64,000 nt of DNA. Origin: Terriglobales bacterium. Lineage in GTDB: Bacteria > Acidobacteriota > Terriglobia > Terriglobales > Acidobacteriaceae. Where the stretch lies: assembly GCA_025462725.1 (NCBI GenBank), contig JAOAPE010000011.1, positions 186,001 through 250,000 on the forward strand, written 5' to 3'. Positions 44,135 through 57,886 of the stretch are shown piece by piece. The notes under the pieces are model-generated. The model ran no database searches and had not been told where the DNA came from. It saw only the letters and a program-made list of their open reading frames with translations. How positions within the stretch are numbered: position 1 is the stretch's first letter; each line of letters opens with the position of its first letter. Made by a program: the position numbers and the translations under genes.

Positions 44135-45280
44135 ATGCACACGCTCCCCCGGCGCATCACCGCCGAACTTCTCGGCACTGCGCTCCTCGTCGCCGCAGTC
44201 ATCGGCTCCGGCATCATGGCCGAGCGACTCGCTGGTGGAAATATCGCGATCGCCCTGCTCGCCAACACGATTGCGACAGGCGCCGCGCTGATAGCGCTCA
44301 TACTGGCCTTCGGCGGAATCTCTGGCGCGCATTTCAATCCCGCCGTCAGCATCAGCGACGCAATCGCGGGGGGAATCTCCAAGCGCGAAGCCACCCTTTA
44401 CATCGCTGCACAATCCGTCGGCGGAATCATCGGCACCGTCATAGCGAACTTGATGTTCGCTCTTCCCATCATCTCCATTTCGCACCACGCGCGAAGCGGC
44501 ACCGCGCAACTCTTCAGCGAATTCATCGCCACCTTCGGACTCACGGCCGTCATCTGGGGATGCGCAAAGACTCGCGCCAGCATGGTCCCCTTTGCAGTTG
44601 GCGCATACATCACCGCCGCGTACTGGTTCACCGCGTCCACTTCGTTCGCAAATCCGGCGGTCACGCTCGCACGCACACTTTCAGATACATTCGCCGGGAT
44701 TCGTCCACAGGATGCGCCGCCATTCATCGTCGCGCAACTCGCCGGGGCACTTACGGCAACGGCAGTCTTTCGCTGGCTCATTCCTGATCTCGACAAAAAA
44801 GCCCCAGAGGTGCTCATGCCCCATCCGACTGAATCGACCAGCGCGACCAAGACTTACATCTTTGCTTGCGTACACAATGCGGGACGCTCGCAGATGGCCG
44901 CCGCATTTTTCAATCTATACGCCACCGAAGGCTGCCGCGCGATCTCAGCAGGTACGGCACCCGCTGCTCGTGTGCATCCTGAAGTGATGACCGTCATGGG
45001 CGAGATCGGGATCGATCTCTCATCCGCGCAGCCTCGGAAGCTGACACAAGAACTCGCTCAAAACGCGCAAGTTCTTGTCACCATGGGATGCGGCGAGACT
45101 TGCCCGTTCGTCCCCGGATTACGCGTCATCGATTGGTCGCTACCCGATCCCAAGGGACAGCCACTCGAAGTCGTCCGCCAAATTCGCGACGAAATTCATG
45201 AACAAGTAAAAGCACTGATAAAGGACGACTGCGGGGATTGTTGTTCCGAGCTGGTGGGGATTGTTGCGCAATCAGAGTAG
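44135..45280 (+). CDS. Aquaporin (AqpS-like)-arsenate reductase (ArsC) fusion
   Basis: 381 residues in two parts. Residues 1-215 are a six-helix MIP channel with both NPA motifs (NPA at 68-70 in HFNPAV, and at 173-175 in FANPAV). After a short linker (about 218-238), residues 239-375 are a low-molecular-weight-phosphatase-type ArsC: the P-loop CVHNAGRS with Cys245 and Arg251, a Cys319-x3-Cys323 pair in MGCGETCPF, and the general acid Asp333 in DWSLPDP. The enzyme would reduce arsenate and the channel would let arsenite leave. Fusions of this kind have been characterised in actinobacteria. The tail has an extra Cys cluster (366, 369, 370). Confidence 0.9.
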   Translation: MHTLPRRITAELLGTALLVAAVIGSGIMAERLAGGNIAIALLANTIATGAALIALILAFGGISGAHFNPAVSISDAIAGGISKREATLYIAAQSVGGIIGTVIANLMFALPIISISHHARSGTAQLFSEFIATFGLTAVIWGCAKTRASMVPFAVGAYITAAYWFTASTSFANPAVTLARTLSDTFAGIRPQDAPPFIVAQLAGALTATAVFRWLIPDLDKKAPEVLMPHPTESTSATKTYIFACVHNAGRSQMAAAFFNLYATEGCRAISAGTAPAARVHPEVMTVMGEIGIDLSSAQPRKLTQELAQNAQVLVTMGCGETCPFVPGLRVIDWSLPDPKGQPLEVVRQIRDEIHEQVKALIKDDCGDCCSELVGIVAQSE

Positions 45281-45363: not shown

Positions 45364-47031
45364 TTGACCTCTGAAACCACCACCCCTGACCTCATCACGT
45401 TCGACCGCACCGGTGACTCCTACAAGCACTGGAAGCTCACCATCGAGGGCCAGATCGCCACGCTCTCAATGGACGTCAGCGAAGATTGCGGGCTGAAGCC
45501 CGGCTACAAACTCAAGCTGAACTCCTACGATCTCGGCGTGGACATCGAGCTACACGACGTTCTCCAGCGCATCCGCTTCGAGCATCCCGAAGTCGCTTGC
45601 GTCGTGCTGACCAGCGGCAAGGATCGAATGTTCTGCGCCGGTGCCAACATATATATGTTGGGCTCGTCCTCGCACGCCTGGAAAGTCAACTTCTGCAAGT
45701 TCACCAACGAGACGCGCGATGGCATGGAAGACTCCAGCCGACACGACGGACTGAAATTTCTCGCCGCGCTCAACGGCATCACCGCAGGCGGCGGATACGA
45801 ACTCGCACTCGCCTGTGATGACATCGTTCTCATCGACGATCGTTCCAGCGCGATCAGCTTGCCCGAAGTCCCGCTGCTTGGTGTGTTGCCCGGAACCGGC
45901 GGACTCACGCGCGTGGTGGACAAGCGCAAAGTGCGTCGCGACCTCGCGGACATGTTTTGCACCAACCCTGACGGCGTCCGCGGAGACCGCGCAAAATCCT
46001 GGGGATTAGTGGACGAAGTCGCTCTCCCCGCAAAATTCCAAGCTGTGGTCCGCGAGCGCGCAGAAAAGCTTGTCGCGAGTTCATCGCGTAAGGCCGATGC
46101 GAAGGGCATCAAACTCAATCCACTCAATCGCACAATCAACGACAACGGATACCACTACAACTACGTCGACGTCACCTTCGATCGCGCCGCGCGGACTGTC
46201 ACACTCACCGTCACTGCGCCCGAAAGCGCGCAGCCGGAAACGATCGAACAGATTCACGCGGCCGGAGACAAATGGTGGCCACTTGCATTGGCGCGCGAAC
46301 TCGACGATGCCATCCTATTACTGCGCACCAATGAACTCGAACTTGGCCTGCTGCTGCTGAAGACCAAAGGCAACATTGATGACGTACTCAAGTCAGACGA
46401 GATCATGTTGAAGCACAAATCCGATTGGCTCGTCCGCGAGACCATCGGATTCCTGCGTCGCACCTTCGCGCGTCTCGATGTCTCCTCGCGCAGTTTCTAT
46501 GCCATCATTGACCCCGGCACTTGCTTCGCGGGCATCCTTTACGAACTCGCACTCGCCGCCGATCGCAGCTACATGCTGATGTCAGAAGAAGAAGGCGAGA
46601 GCACTGAAATCGCGCTCTCCGGCGTGAACTTCGGATTGCTGCCCATGGTCAACGGACGTAGCCGCCTGGAGACTCGCTTCATCGGCGCGCCAGAAAAAAT
46701 CAGCGAACTTGAAAAACTGAAAGGCCAGAAATTCAACGCCGAGAAAGCCGAAGAACTCGGGCTCATCACGCTCGCGCCAGACAGTCTCGACTGGGAAGAT
46801 GAGATTCGCATTGCTATTGAAGAGCGCGCGAGCCTCTCGCCTGACGCGCTCACCGGCATGGAAGCGAGTCTTCGTTTCCCCGGCGCGGAGACACTCGAGA
46901 CGAAAGTGTTCGGTCGCCTCTCCGCATGGCAGAACTGGGTTTTCATCCGGCCAAATTCCACGGGCGAACACGGAGCGTTGAAGCTGTTCGGCAAGGGTTC
47001 TAAAGCGCGATTCAATTGGGAGAGAGTGTAA
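45364..47031 (+). CDS. boxC: Benzoyl-CoA-dihydrodiol lyase
   Basis: 555 residues, the usual size of BoxC. Two enoyl-CoA-hydratase-like halves are visible: the first with VVLTSGKDRMFCAGANIYML and GGYELALACDDIVLIDD (about 80-165), the second with AGILYELALAADRSYML (about 388-405). BoxC opens the ring of 2,3-epoxybenzoyl-CoA hydrolytically, giving 3,4-dehydroadipyl-CoA semialdehyde and formate. The start is TTG 45364 with AGAAGGA about six bases upstream. boxB starts directly after its stop, so the two form one operon. Confidence 0.93.
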   Translation: MTSETTTPDLITFDRTGDSYKHWKLTIEGQIATLSMDVSEDCGLKPGYKLKLNSYDLGVDIELHDVLQRIRFEHPEVACVVLTSGKDRMFCAGANIYMLGSSSHAWKVNFCKFTNETRDGMEDSSRHDGLKFLAALNGITAGGGYELALACDDIVLIDDRSSAISLPEVPLLGVLPGTGGLTRVVDKRKVRRDLADMFCTNPDGVRGDRAKSWGLVDEVALPAKFQAVVRERAEKLVASSSRKADAKGIKLNPLNRTINDNGYHYNYVDVTFDRAARTVTLTVTAPESAQPETIEQIHAAGDKWWPLALARELDDAILLLRTNELELGLLLLKTKGNIDDVLKSDEIMLKHKSDWLVRETIGFLRRTFARLDVSSRSFYAIIDPGTCFAGILYELALAADRSYMLMSEEEGESTEIALSGVNFGLLPMVNGRSRLETRFIGAPEKISELEKLKGQKFNAEKAEELGLITLAPDSLDWEDEIRIAIEERASLSPDALTGMEASLRFPGAETLETKVFGRLSAWQNWVFIRPNSTGEHGALKLFGKGSKARFNWERV

Positions 47032-48456
47032 ATGTCGATCAACTATCAAGACCGCATTCCGAACAACGTCGATCTCGGCTCCAACCGCACGCTCCAGCGC
47101 GCCCTCGAACACTGGCAGCCGGAATTCTTGAAATGGTGGCAGGACCTCGGGCCCAGCGACTTCCAACTCTCTGACGTTTACTTGCGCACCGCCACATCCG
47201 TTGACGCGAAAGGCTGGGCGACTTACGGCTACGTCAACATGCCCGAATATCGTTGGGGAATTTTTCTAGCTGACCGCGATCCTGAACGCCGCATCGGGTT
47301 CGGAGACAACTTCGGACAGGAAGTCTGGCAACAAATCCCCGGCGAATTCCGTTCAACATTCCGCCGATTAATTGTCACCCAAGGTGACACCGAGCCTGCG
47401 TCGGTCGAACAGCAACGCTTGCTCGGACACACCGCTCCGTCGCTCTACGATCTTCGAAACCTTTTTCAAGTGAACGTCGAAGAGGGCCGACACCTTTGGG
47501 CAATGGTCTACTTGCTGCACGCACACTTCGGTCGCGACGGCCGCGAAGAAGCAGAAGAGTTGCTCGAGCGCCACTCCGGTGACGCGGACAAGCCGCGCAT
47601 ACTCGGCACCTTCAACGAGCCTATCAGCGACTGGCTTAGCTTCTTCATGTTCACCTACTTCACTGATCGCGATGGAAAATTTCAGTTGAAGTCGCTCGCC
47701 GAATCGAGCTTCGATCCGCTCGCTCGCACTTGCCAGTTCATGCTCACCGAAGAGGCGCATCACATGTTCGTCGGCGACACCGGCATCTCGCGCGTCATCC
47801 GCCGCACGCTTGAAGTGATGAAAGAGATTGGCAGCGATGACGCGATCGCCTTGCGCAACGCCGGTGCCATCGATCTCCAGACCATGCAGAAGTATCTGAA
47901 TTTCTGGTTCAGTTCTTCTCTCGATCTTTTCGGCGCGGACACTTCATCGAACGCCGCTTCCTATTTCGCGAACGGCCTCAAAGGCCGTCCCGACGAAGCG
48001 CAATACGAAGACCACGTCGCCAAAGATCAAACCTATGCACTTGAATTGCCCGACGGCGCTGGCGGAACAAAGACAGAACAGATTCCCATGCGCAACGCGA
48101 TGAATGAAGTCACGCGCAACTCTTACGTGCGCGACTGCGAAATCGGCGCGAAGCGTTGGAATCGTCAGATCGAAAAAGCAGGGTTTTCGGCCCGCCTCTC
48201 GCTGCCCAGCACCCGCTTCCGTCGCAACATCGGAAGCTGGGCCAACATCCCCACGGATCCAACGGGCAAGCAGATCAGCAGGGAAGAATTCGAATCAAAG
48301 AAAAGCCAGTGGCTCCCCGGCGAAGCCGACACTGCATTCATCCGCAGCTTGATGCAAGGTGTCTTTCAGCCAGGAAAGATGGCCGCATGGATTGCGCCAC
48401 CCGATCGCGGCATCAACAATAATCCTGTTGAATACGAATACGTGAAACTTCACTGA
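47032..48456 (+). CDS. boxB: Benzoyl-CoA 2,3-epoxidase, diiron oxygenase subunit
   Basis: 474 residues. BoxB is a class I-type diiron monooxygenase that epoxidises benzoyl-CoA with O2 and two electrons. Carboxylate and histidine ligand motifs are readable: E150-E151-x2-H154 (NVEEGRHLWAM) and E240-E241-x-H243 (TEEAHHMFVG). Its start directly follows the boxC stop codon, showing tight coupling. The enzyme normally takes electrons from BoxA (a two-ferredoxin/FNR-type reductase), which I cannot find in this window. Confidence 0.94.
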   Translation: MSINYQDRIPNNVDLGSNRTLQRALEHWQPEFLKWWQDLGPSDFQLSDVYLRTATSVDAKGWATYGYVNMPEYRWGIFLADRDPERRIGFGDNFGQEVWQQIPGEFRSTFRRLIVTQGDTEPASVEQQRLLGHTAPSLYDLRNLFQVNVEEGRHLWAMVYLLHAHFGRDGREEAEELLERHSGDADKPRILGTFNEPISDWLSFFMFTYFTDRDGKFQLKSLAESSFDPLARTCQFMLTEEAHHMFVGDTGISRVIRRTLEVMKEIGSDDAIALRNAGAIDLQTMQKYLNFWFSSSLDLFGADTSSNAASYFANGLKGRPDEAQYEDHVAKDQTYALELPDGAGGTKTEQIPMRNAMNEVTRNSYVRDCEIGAKRWNRQIEKAGFSARLSLPSTRFRRNIGSWANIPTDPTGKQISREEFESKKSQWLPGEADTAFIRSLMQGVFQPGKMAAWIAPPDRGINNNPVEYEYVKLH

Positions 48457-48466
48457 GCGTCGCGCG

Positions 48467-49723
48467 ATGAAGATTGCAATCGTCGGCAGCGGCCCCGCAG
48501 GATGCTACTTGGCGGATCAACTCCTCCGCCTGGTGCCCGGCTGCGCGATCGATGTCATCGATCGCTTGCCCGTACCGTTCGGCCTGGTGCGCTACGGCGT
48601 CGCTCCCGATCACCAAGCAACAAAGTCTGTATCGCGAATCCTTGATCGGACTCTCGCGCACAAGCAAGTGAACTTCTTCGGCAACGTCGAAGTCGGCCGC
48701 GATGTAACACTCGAACAACTACTTTCGTTCTACGACGCAGTCGCGCTGGCAACCGGAGCGCAACGCGACCGCCGTCTCGGCATCCCCGGTGAAAACCTGC
48801 CCGGCGTGATCGGTTCAGGAAGTTTCGTGGCGTGGTACAACGGCCACCCCGACGCGAAAATTCCGCCGATTGAAAACATCAAGTCAGTCGTCGTGATCGG
48901 GAATGGCAATGTTGCGATCGATGTCGCGCGCGTGCTGGCGAAAGAGCCATCCGAACTTGCGGGCTCCGATCTGTCGCATGACATAACGCAGCTGTTAGCA
49001 GCACAACCGTTGCGGGAGATTCATATTGTTGGACGCCGCGGCCCCGCCGACGCGAAATTCACTCCACACGAATTAGCCGAATTAGGAAATTTGAAACGTG
49101 CAAAACCCTTCATCGCTGATCCGGAAGAATTGGAAAAAGCTGATGCAACACCGATTGTCGGAGTGTTGGAAAAGTTCTTGGAAAACGGTAATTGCCAAGA
49201 CTCAAATGAGCAGCGCTCTGTTTCAGTGGTTTTCCATTTCTATCTCGCGCCCGTTGCTTTCGTTGGTTACGGGCGGCTGCAAGCGGTGAAATTTCGCGCG
49301 AAAGATGGAAAAGAAGTAGAGATCGCGGCGGACTTGGCGGTGACCTGTATCGGATATGAGTCGTTGCCGTGTTGCACGGCGAAGCCAGTGGATGGAAAGT
49401 TTGCGAACGCGGATGGAAAAATTGATGAGCGTTTGTATGTTGTCGGTTGGGCGAAGCGCGGGCCGTCCGGGGTGATCGCCAGTAGCAGAAGTGACGCGCA
49501 ACTGGTTGCGAAGAAAATCGCCGAAGATGTCTCTGATGGTGGGCGGCGCGGAGGCGAGGGGCTACGCGAGCATCTGCAATCGAAGAACGCGCGGTTCCTT
49601 GATCATACGGGCTGGAAGCGGATCAATGATGCGGAAGTGGCGCGAGCAGGGGAGCATCGCTGTCGGGAGAAATTCTGTTCAGTGGAAGAGATGCTAGAGG
49701 CGTCCGGGAAATCCCCGAGTTAG
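48467..49723 (+). CDS. Adrenodoxin-reductase/FprA-type NADPH flavoprotein
   Basis: 418 residues. The FAD motif is GSGPAG at 7-12, the NADPH-binding part is VVVIGNGNVAIDVARVLAK near 142-160, and the family block VGWAKRGPSGVIASSR near 324-339 is present. YGVAPDHQATKSV (about 43-55) is diagnostic of the adrenodoxin-reductase (FprA) branch. These enzymes pass electrons from NADPH to a ferredoxin or flavodoxin. It starts 10 bp after boxB and is on the same strand, where BoxA would be expected. No iron-sulfur domain is fused. Confidence 0.9.
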   Translation: MKIAIVGSGPAGCYLADQLLRLVPGCAIDVIDRLPVPFGLVRYGVAPDHQATKSVSRILDRTLAHKQVNFFGNVEVGRDVTLEQLLSFYDAVALATGAQRDRRLGIPGENLPGVIGSGSFVAWYNGHPDAKIPPIENIKSVVVIGNGNVAIDVARVLAKEPSELAGSDLSHDITQLLAAQPLREIHIVGRRGPADAKFTPHELAELGNLKRAKPFIADPEELEKADATPIVGVLEKFLENGNCQDSNEQRSVSVVFHFYLAPVAFVGYGRLQAVKFRAKDGKEVEIAADLAVTCIGYESLPCCTAKPVDGKFANADGKIDERLYVVGWAKRGPSGVIASSRSDAQLVAKKIAEDVSDGGRRGGEGLREHLQSKNARFLDHTGWKRINDAEVARAGEHRCREKFCSVEEMLEASGKSPS

Positions 49724-49971
49724 AAATCCAACGTTAGCTTCGCGAACGTGGGGCACCGAAACGTCTTTCATTCCCACTTTAGCTTCGCGCCCGAAATACA
49801 CCCGGAATTGCTCATCCAGCCACTCTGATGTTTTTTCCTGTCCAGTGTTCAATCCAGAGTACGACAGACCACCTCAGCGCTGAATAGTGACTCTTAATAG
49901 TAGCGTCCCCAGAGAGCTGAAGTCGGCCAGCCGTACTTTGTCTAGTGAGCGAATGCCGGCGCGGAGGAATC

Positions 49972-51096
49972 ATGTTCAAGAACAAACGGCAATGGATATG
50001 GGTGGCGGTTGCGGCAGTCGGAACCTCGCTCAGCGTGGGACAGATTGCAGCGCAGGACCGCGATCGCGACGATCAATACCAAAATAACAACCAATACGAC
50101 CAGAACAGCCGCGCTTACAAGCAAGGCGTGAAGCATGCTCAGGACGATCTCAAGCACAACCGCTCGCGCAACTATCGCGGGCGTTACAACAATGACGCTG
50201 ATTCGCGCGCATACCAGGCGGGCTATGACAACGCATACAGTGGCGGCAATGATGCGTATCGCGGTGGCGTGTATGGCGGAAATGTCTATGGCCGAAATAC
50301 CGGAAACGTTTACGGAGACGGCCAGTATGGCGCGAATAATCCGGGCGCGCGACAGGGATTCCAAGATGGAATGACAGATGGGCAAGCGGATCGGGCAGCG
50401 GGACGCGGCATGCACTATGGGCCGGGGTACGACCATCCTGACCGTGGTTATCAGGACAGCTTTGGCGACAAGAACACTTACGAGCAGTCGTACAGGCAGT
50501 CTTATCAGCAGGCCTATCAGCGCGCGTACGGTAACGCGAATGCGGGGAATTATCCTGGAACGTATGGCGGCACCTACGGAAACCAGCAGTATGGGGTGAA
50601 CAATCCTGGTGCTCAACAGGGATTCCAAGACGGAGCGACGGACGGCCAAGCTGACCGCGCGGCGGGACGCTCGGTGCATTACGGGCCGGGTTACGATCAT
50701 CCAGATCGCGGATACAACAACAGCTTCGGCGACAAGCAGGCTTATGAGCAGGCGTACAAGCAGGCTTATCAGCAGGGATATCAGAACGCGTACAACGGAA
50801 CGTCGGCGGGCGGAAACTATCCTAACGGAAATTATCCGGTGGGCGATCGAGACCGCGACGACCAGTACGGCGGATACGCGATGAACAATCCGGGAGCGCG
50901 TCAAGGCTTTCAGGATGGCGTGACCGATGGCAATGCCGACCGCAACGCGGGGCGCTCGATGCACTACGGCCCGGGATATGACCATCCGGATCGCGGGTAT
51001 CAGGACAGCTTCGGCGATAAGAACACTTATGAACAAGCGTACAAGCAGGCTTATCAGCAGGGCTATCAGCGGGCGTATAACGGCCGCGGGCGTTAG
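49972..51096 (+). CDS. Exported Tyr/Gln/Gly-rich protein with three long tandem repeats
   Basis: 374 residues. GGAGGAATC before the ATG and a signal peptide (about 1-27) fix the start. After a region with YKQGVKHAQDDLKHNR there are three repeats starting NNPGA, at residues 122, 210 and 305 (DNA 50335, 50599, 50884). Each has an invariant core (QGFQDG, then TDG.ADR.AGR, MHYGPGYDHPDRG or a near match, SFGDK) and a Tyr/Gln/Ala helix-like YEQAYKQAYQQGYQ. The spacers between repeats vary in length. No known domain is recognised; a fibrous or matrix role is a guess. The repeats are recent enough to be similar at DNA level. Confidence 0.82.
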   Translation: MFKNKRQWIWVAVAAVGTSLSVGQIAAQDRDRDDQYQNNNQYDQNSRAYKQGVKHAQDDLKHNRSRNYRGRYNNDADSRAYQAGYDNAYSGGNDAYRGGVYGGNVYGRNTGNVYGDGQYGANNPGARQGFQDGMTDGQADRAAGRGMHYGPGYDHPDRGYQDSFGDKNTYEQSYRQSYQQAYQRAYGNANAGNYPGTYGGTYGNQQYGVNNPGAQQGFQDGATDGQADRAAGRSVHYGPGYDHPDRGYNNSFGDKQAYEQAYKQAYQQGYQNAYNGTSAGGNYPNGNYPVGDRDRDDQYGGYAMNNPGARQGFQDGVTDGNADRNAGRSMHYGPGYDHPDRGYQDSFGDKNTYEQAYKQAYQQGYQRAYNGRGR

Positions 51097-51102
51097 AGAA
51101 AA

Positions 51103-51190
51103 GCAGTGGCTAGTGGCCAGTGGTTAGTGTCTAGTTGAGGCATAGCCACTGGCTTTCTAGTTTCTAGTGCCTAGTTTTTAGTTCTAGTAA
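51103..51190. repeat. Period-7 intergenic array (AGTGGYT and AGTTTCT units)
   Basis: Four AGTGGYT-type units start just after the stop of the repeat-protein gene. After about 30 bases come four AGTTTCT-like units (51159-51187). CTAG recurs at the junctions. Confidence 0.7.
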
Positions 51191-54789: not shown

Positions 54790-55316
54790 GCGAGGCAAGC
54801 ATTGATGGGGGAGCTGCATCTCAGAATGGAATGGTTCATCATTCGCATAAAAGAGGCCTGCGCAGCCTGGCGATGCTCGAAGGAGCCAAGGGACTGCTCG
54901 CTATCGTGGGGGCGATTGTGGTGTTCACGTTCGCGCACAAAGACCTGGGAGATGTGGCTGACCGATTGCTGCATTTGTTGCATGTGAATCCGGGCTCACG
55001 ATTTGCGGAGGCGGTGTTTCGCGCAGCGGACAAAGCCACGGTGCAGCAAATCGTTTTGGTCGGCTTTGGTGTGCTGGTCTATGCGGCGGTGCGGCTGGTG
55101 GAAGCCTATGGATTGTGGCATGAGCGCGAGTGGGCGGAGTGGTTTGCGCTGCTGTCAGGATGTTTGTATTTGCCGTGGGAGATTTATGAGATTGCACGCA
55201 GGGTGACACCGGTTAGAGTGTCCATATTGGTGATCAATGTAATTGTGGTGATTTATTTAGCTTGGGTGCTGTGGCAGAGCTGGCGCGAAAAAGCAGTGAT
55301 TGTGGCTAGTGGGTAG
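54786..55316 (+). CDS. DUF2127-family membrane protein
   Basis: 176 residues from GTG 54786, which overlaps the previous stop (GTGA); GGAAG lies about six bases upstream. Membrane segments near 33-50 (GLLAIVGAIVVFTFA), 85-105, 115-130 and 150-167. The block RSLAMLEGAKGLLAIVGA and the later YGLWHEREWAEWFALLSG and LPWEIYEIA are typical of DUF2127. The function is unknown. The final residues VASG and the stop are encoded by the first units of a period-7 repeat, so the natural C-terminus may have been altered by the array. Confidence 0.82.
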   Translation: MSEASIDGGAASQNGMVHHSHKRGLRSLAMLEGAKGLLAIVGAIVVFTFAHKDLGDVADRLLHLLHVNPGSRFAEAVFRAADKATVQQIVLVGFGVLVYAAVRLVEAYGLWHEREWAEWFALLSGCLYLPWEIYEIARRVTPVRVSILVINVIVVIYLAWVLWQSWREKAVIVASG

Positions 55317-55491
55317 TGGTTAGCGAGAGCGTTCAGCGCAGAGAACGCAGAGAACGCAGGGGACGCAGAGGGATCAAGGGGCGAGTCGATATTTGCAAGT
55401 ATGTTGAGTAGCGCAGCCCGAGGCCGGCTGTGCCACTCAAAGCGAATGCATAGATCCTTCGACTCCGCTACGCTTCGCTCAGGATGACATT
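55297..55491. repeat. Cluster of dispersed repeats between DUF2127 and GH1 genes
   Basis: Three period-7 units (GTGGCTA-like, 55301-55322), then four CGCAGAGAA-type units (55338-55370), a palindromic GCCCGAGGCCGGCTGTG stretch (55419-55434) and an inverted GTCGAAGGATC-type unit (55453-55489). No gene is visible between 55317 and 55507. Confidence 0.65.
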
Positions 55492-57849: not shown

Positions 57850-57886
57850 GGCAGTGACTAGTGGGTAGTGGTCAGTGGCTAGCAAG
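57850..57886. repeat. Period-7 intergenic array (AGTGGYT units)
   Basis: Four units AGTGACT, AGTGGGT, AGTGGTC, AGTGGCT, starting right after the radical SAM stop. Confidence 0.7.

Follow-up and report, generated by a model that had tools for sequence, protein, structure and literature searches.

Repeats in which a small residue recurs at every fourth position have been described in two settings that resemble the protein considered here. For FliH, a flagellar export component, Trost and Moore (2009; PMC2674601) report that the GxxxG repeats carry Tyr or Phe in >45% of x1 positions and Glu, Gln or Ala in about two thirds of x3 positions, and they suggest that the aromatic side chains touch the backbone of glycines in the neighbouring helix. 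In yeast, glycine changes in the deca-GX3 motif of Lto1 are reported to weaken its binding to Yae1, and the same authors note that the motif is also found in FliH (PMC4523923).

A protein with related repeats is encoded at positions 49972–51096 (+ strand) of a 64,000-nucleotide stretch of DNA from a Terriglobales bacterium, hereafter called the window. Its three cores represent a specialised version of a ~67-residue module. Like the GxxxG segments of FliH/YscL, this module is predicted to contain a soluble helix in which every fourth residue is small, with Tyr/Phe in the x1 site and Gln/Glu in the x3 site; helix-on-helix packing has been proposed for FliH/YscL (PMC2674601), as it is here for the module. 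In helix 2 of the cores the FliH-type pattern is present, small residues recurring at four-residue intervals with Tyr/Phe next to them (x1). Whereas FliH has a long repeat segment, the module has two short segments predicted to form a hairpin with a conserved loop, and it occurs in exported-looking proteins. The NCBIfam cut-off for FliH was not reached by a fused relative (17.3 bits versus 192), single modules gave E 0.0013 at best, and no FliH model was present among the NCBIfam matches of the 49972–51096 protein at E up to 1.

The Yae1/Lto1 proteins likewise contain GX3 tetrads, which are reported to be needed for protein-protein pairing (PMC4523923), but they act as Fe-S adaptors in eukaryotes and their motif spans 40 residues. 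Some modules of relatives come near Yae1_N (PF09811), which 5 of 16 modules matched at E up to 0.1; the genome of the window gave no match at E 0.1 and the 49972–51096 protein gave none, and the cut-off of 27.5 bits was not reached (best module, 22.4; whole locus protein, 17.6). The hallmark of Yae1_N, a run of about ten consecutive GX3 units, is absent from the module, which has two groups of four tetrads with the loop between them. By the tests made, the module is a member of neither family, although it may act in a manner analogous to their repeats.

The initial annotation had recognised no family, and library searches bore this out, neither the module nor the 49972–51096 protein exceeding a curated cut-off in Pfam, NCBIfam or PDB sequences, and the matches obtained being far below their cut-offs. 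Weak matches to YfhO (E 0.074, or 0.016 with a longer frame), PRK10332 (E 0.0092, 16.5 bits versus 86), PHROG 9431, which has no assigned function (16 residues, E 0.0044), and a YSIRK lipase model that the Gln/Arg-rich relative L059 matched far under its cut-off (E 0.00053) were set aside. Plasmid sequences yielded no match for the 49972–51096 protein, one single module or one two-module protein, and phage sequences none for one module; in viral contigs, 66, 85 and 16 stretches fitted a pattern with three alignments, none of which was confirmed. The module was not described in the titles and abstract openings covered by the literature searches, which were partly aimed at Yae1/Lto1 and FliH and partly broad.

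A gene with three conserved cores

The reading frame at 49972–51096, which encodes 374 residues, is preceded by a Shine-Dalgarno-like GGAGGA, read directly from the sequence at 49963–49968 (+), 3 nt 5′ of the ATG at 49972, which favours this ATG as the start over a GTG at 49945. The N terminus, MFKNKRQ followed by a hydrophobic stretch and IAAQ, was read by eye as a putative Sec-type signal of residues 1–28 (49972–50055, +), ending in QIAAQ, and the paralogues in the same genome likewise have a basic start, a hydrophobic stretch and a VAQ end. The protein thus looks Sec-exported. Of the original description, an exported Tyr/Gln/Gly protein with three repeats, the reading frame and the repeats stand, and export is a judgement of the N terminus by eye. 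Past residue 30, the composition is 17.4% Gly, 13.1% Tyr, 11.0% Gln, 10.2% Asn and 10.2% Asp. A reverse reading frame of 364 residues (49942–51036) was rejected because core-to-core changes are mostly synonymous in the + frame, and this synonymous excess supports the frame adopted.

Repeats of 219 nt begin at 50311, 50575 and 50860, the second copy having 78% and the third 75% identity with the first. Their spacing of 264 and 285 nt agrees with the ~88 and ~95 residues given initially and with start-to-start distances of 88 and 95 residues for the 66-residue cores. On the basis of the DNA repeats, profile matches and AlphaFold2 models, core 1 comprises residues 122–187 (50335–50532, +), core 2 residues 210–275 (50599–50796, +) and core 3 residues 305–370 (50884–51081, +). 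The NNPGA start, TDGxADRxAGR, GYDHPDRG and SFGDK are common to all three. The spacer between cores 1 and 2 (50533–50598, +) is rich in Gly, Tyr and Asn, and that between cores 2 and 3 (50797–50883, +) in Gly, Asn and Asp; as had been noted from the outset, the spacers vary in length and letters but the cores do not.

The claim that the cores are under selection was examined by the method of Nei and Gojobori. Synonymous differences (pS) were 0.63, 0.76 and 0.68 for core pairs 1/2, 1/3 and 2/3, respectively, compared with nonsynonymous differences (pN) of 0.13, 0.09 and 0.10; omega was 0.104 for cores 1/2 and 0.063 for cores 2/3, and was not computable for cores 1/3, where pS is saturated. Given that synonymous sites are near saturation and the amino acids are kept, the cores are under purifying selection, as claimed: judged by synonymous sites the copies diverged long ago, and the protein is held by selection. 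In a tree of 15 cores, the three cores of this gene cluster together with an ultrafast bootstrap of 93 and an SH-aLRT of 91, support that falls under the star threshold of the tool in a tree where most other forks are open; amplification of the core may therefore belong to the lineage of this gene.

Conservation of this kind bears on the idea that the protein, hydrophilic and largely without fixed structure in the cell, protects against stress or desiccation. The protein is indeed very hydrophilic and Gly-rich, and 129 of its 374 residues have pLDDT <50 in the full-length AlphaFold2 model, but position-by-position conservation of the cores despite near-saturated synonymous change would be needless if composition alone mattered, and a protectant role is considered very improbable.

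Predicted hairpins and the tetrad rule of the two helices

Each core is predicted by AlphaFold2, with moderate confidence, to form a helix-loop-helix. For a 72-residue core construct the model has helices at 6–24 and 49–70, a mean pLDDT of 73.5 and a pTM of 0.62, obtained from an alignment of eight sequences with five models that span 73.5 to 49.9, three of them <65 pLDDT. The full-length model (mean pLDDT 63.3, pTM 0.28), for which the alignment held four sequences and the five models ranged from 63.3 to 42.2, contains helix pairs at residues 47–61/75–91, 124–142/167–190, 212–231/255–274 and 307–325/350–370. Block-mean pLDDT was 62–89 in the three cores and <50 in the spacers (residues 188–209 and 277–304), which are predicted to be disordered; at a pTM of 0.28, packing of core on core has no support from the model. 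The first helix pair belongs to a divergent two-helix unit, residues 47–91 (50110–50244, +), with a block-mean pLDDT of 54–74, which aligns with the same region of the relatives L026 and L027. A Foldseek search of the core model against the PDB matched no solved structure (four matches, best E 6.1), and VIA-align aligned nine chains, one with Z >2 (5.5, a ribosome entry), a value of little meaning for a small helical model.

Both predicted helices run in units of four residues that open with a small one, with the pattern GxxDG.. in helix 1 and (A/G/S)YxQ in helix 2, where Tyr/Phe follows the small residue. Across a family set of 64 distinct open frames (duplicates removed by comparison of the last 60 residues; 87 module matches, of which 83 were alignable), Gly, Ala or Ser headed a mean of 7.41 of the eight tetrads per module, compared with a mean of 2.24 and a maximum of 2.63 in 500 residue shuffles. 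Aromatic residues filled a mean of 3.95 of the four helix-2 x1 sites, and all four in 80 of 83 modules, compared with 0.71 (maximum 0.95) in the shuffles, a comparison that is in part circular because the modules had been located with a profile.

The rule is uneven along the module. Small heads occupy positions 3, 7, 11 and 15 in 76, 83, 83 and 83 of the 83 modules and positions 53, 57, 61 and 65 in 46, 83, 82 and 79; aromatics at positions 54, 58, 62 and 66 number 83, 82, 83 and 80, and those of helix 1 are patchy (48, 76 and 40 at positions 4, 8 and 12). All three cores of the 49972–51096 protein have eight of eight small heads, Ser counted, and four of four aromatic x1 residues in helix 2, with one aromatic x1 residue (Phe) in helix 1. 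Other conserved module positions are Asp 18 (93%), Tyr 50 (89%), Tyr 33 (85%), and Gly 39 and Tyr 40 (83% each). Asp/Glu at 18 is accompanied by Arg/Lys at 55 in 64 of 83 modules, a pairing that would suit an antiparallel hairpin. The three strongest mutual-information pairs (effective number 65) lie between the two helices, but they involve nearly invariant columns in varying register (sums 64 to 80).

Distribution, architectures and setting of the module family

Soils are rich in Acidobacteriota, and a role has yet to be assigned to many of the proteins that these bacteria export. Profile A2, built from a diverse 16-row alignment, located the ~67-residue module in at least 74 of 247 Acidobacteriota genomes sampled across the phylum and at least 45 of 141 sampled genera, counts that are lower bounds since 24 candidates at most were scored per genome. 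The genus-type profile found matches at E ≤ 1e-12 in 20 of 200 genomes of the family sample, scores of ~100 bits or more outside the genus being confined to G273 and G287, and the narrow profile A1 found matches at E ≤ 0.001 in 15 of 31 close relatives. Within the genus, G001 has one three-core and one one-core gene, G003 has one core, G004 has two one-core genes with altered loops and a third, weak match, and G002 has a single weak match (E 2.4e-5). A contig scan with the narrow alignment returned three loci, all from Acidobacteriota (Candidatus Angelobacter sp. and Acidobacteriaceae bacterium), which, judged by length and sequence, correspond to the contigs of G001 and G003 and are not independent of them. 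The genome of the window (4.33 Mb, 91 contigs) encodes three paralogues, C56 with two cores and C75 and C61 with one each. The first reading of the gene had been staked on conservation of the cores in relatives, and they recur in these paralogues, among other genomes of the genus and in a further genus, where the gene L126 of G273 has two cores; the comparison of repeat number that it called for gave one to three cores per gene.

In the seven cores of the genome, 33 of 66 columns are invariant, and the longest invariant runs, YGPGY, HPDRGY and GDK, all belong to the loop. With its invariant His, Asp, Arg, Asp and Lys, the loop could be that of a module binding a ligand such as a cell-wall sugar or a metal, with repeats raising avidity, and HPDRG recurs in both cores of L126. 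Across the family, however, HPDRG is found in 12 of 83 modules, the other 71 conserve (≥80%) only a Tyr and a Gly-Tyr of the loop, the loops are altered in the modules L008 and L022 of the same genus, and no binding domain was matched in Pfam or NCBIfam. Ligand or metal binding as the main role of the module is accordingly regarded as doubtful.

A C-terminal TrbI-like/glycine-zipper domain, located with a profile built from six of the fusions, follows the module in 21 of the 64 family proteins (L015, L018, L019, L044, L046, L048, L050–L053, L055, L056, L062, L064, L067–L071, L074 and L077). One fusion matched TrbI (PF03743) at 1.8e-6, below the curated cut-off; the best fusion reached 28.4 bits where TrbI requires 35, and another 14.5 where Gly-zipper_YMGG requires 28.9, so both domain names are tentative. 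The 49972–51096 protein differs from these fusions in having no such domain: Pfam gave no TrbI match, and the protein ends three residues past the third module match. Among the 43 proteins without the domain, 25 have one module, 16 have two (some partial) and two have three, the latter being the 49972–51096 protein and the G001 protein L006. In L059, L061 and L065, long Gln/Arg- or Arg/Lys-rich arms precede one module, with ~30 residues to the end. The presence of single-module proteins and TrbI-like fusions in the family suggests that the module serves packing or binding in a general way.

These architectures also bear on the initial proposal of a self-assembling or matrix protein, that is, a Tyr/Gln/Gly-rich extracellular protein of amyloid- or silk-like character. 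A Gly/Tyr/Gln-rich composition, Gly/Tyr/Asn-rich spacers predicted to be disordered and several repeats per chain are all in keeping with it. The Tyr and Gln residues, however, are better accounted for by the (A/G/S)YxQ tetrads of a predicted hairpin α-helix than by repeats of β/amyloid type; the cores are predicted to be helical with moderate confidence (AlphaFold2), curli-type repeats being β-strands that form fibres, and no curlin or other matrix family was among the Pfam matches of the protein at E up to 10. Single-module proteins, moreover, are ill-suited to a repeat polymer. As worded, the proposal exceeds the evidence and a matrix protein of this type is judged unlikely, although self-assembly as such is plausible.

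Aerobic benzoyl-CoA breakdown is represented upstream of the gene by boxC and boxB (TIGR03222 and TIGR03225 above cut-off), after which comes a reductase of GltD-like, NAD(P)-binding type (boxC to reductase, 45364–49723) that might, at a guess, serve in the role of BoxA; downstream lies a TIGR03436 VWA protein. In G001 and G003, the place after the box-cluster reductase is taken by a methyltransferase gene (Pfam Methyltransf_23) and not by this gene. Comparison of 1800 open stretches of ≥100 residues around 41 module loci gave 12 non-module clusters recurring in three to six loci. Those in five or six loci came entirely or almost entirely from one family (f22), and one four-locus cluster spans four families; no neighbour family is widely shared among the 41 loci, and none points to an envelope complex. 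In the 250-nt upstream regions of the four paralogues, no exact word in common exceeds 10 bases, and one promoter-like site was found compared with 1.0 in shuffles. No functional link between the gene and its neighbours was seen, and it looks like a stand-alone unit.

Elsewhere in the window, the reading frame 44135–45280 appears to combine an aquaporin-like channel (MIP match, 10–168) with an arsenate-reductase-like domain (ArsC-type, 240–362), both matches being under cut-off. TAGTGGC-like clusters with a 7-nt period lie at or just after the ends of reading frames (51104–51137, 55300–55319 and 57852–57878), and TAGTGGCTAGTGG, with up to two mismatches, had eight matches compared with 0.42 expected.

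Proposed role of the hairpins

The reading we prefer, which we hold with about even confidence, is that of an exported scaffold resembling beads on a string, in which three GX3 helical hairpins and the divergent two-helix unit are joined by disordered linkers. We infer that the protein would be exported to the periplasm or surface, where each hairpin would be an antiparallel helix-loop-helix whose helices pack via the small-headed tetrads. In helix 2, the Tyr/Phe that adjoins the small residue would make contacts like those of the FliH GxxxG repeats, the Asp/Glu18-Arg/Lys55 pair would perhaps help to close the hairpin, and the conserved loop, YGPGYxHPDRGYxxSxGDK, would cap it or form a contact site. 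Several such hairpins per chain, carried on flexible spacers, could provide a multivalent binder or self-associating scaffold. A bolder extension, in which the module defines an uncatalogued Acidobacteriota-wide family of exported GX3 hairpins that serves as an envelope velcro, with copy number set by duplication and a ligand added by the HPDRG loop, is speculative and judged unlikely.

The module has no name in the family libraries searched, and it is short, defined and repeated, with a packing rule that can be tested. If the hairpins pair between chains, they would offer a simple modular route to envelope or extracellular assemblies.
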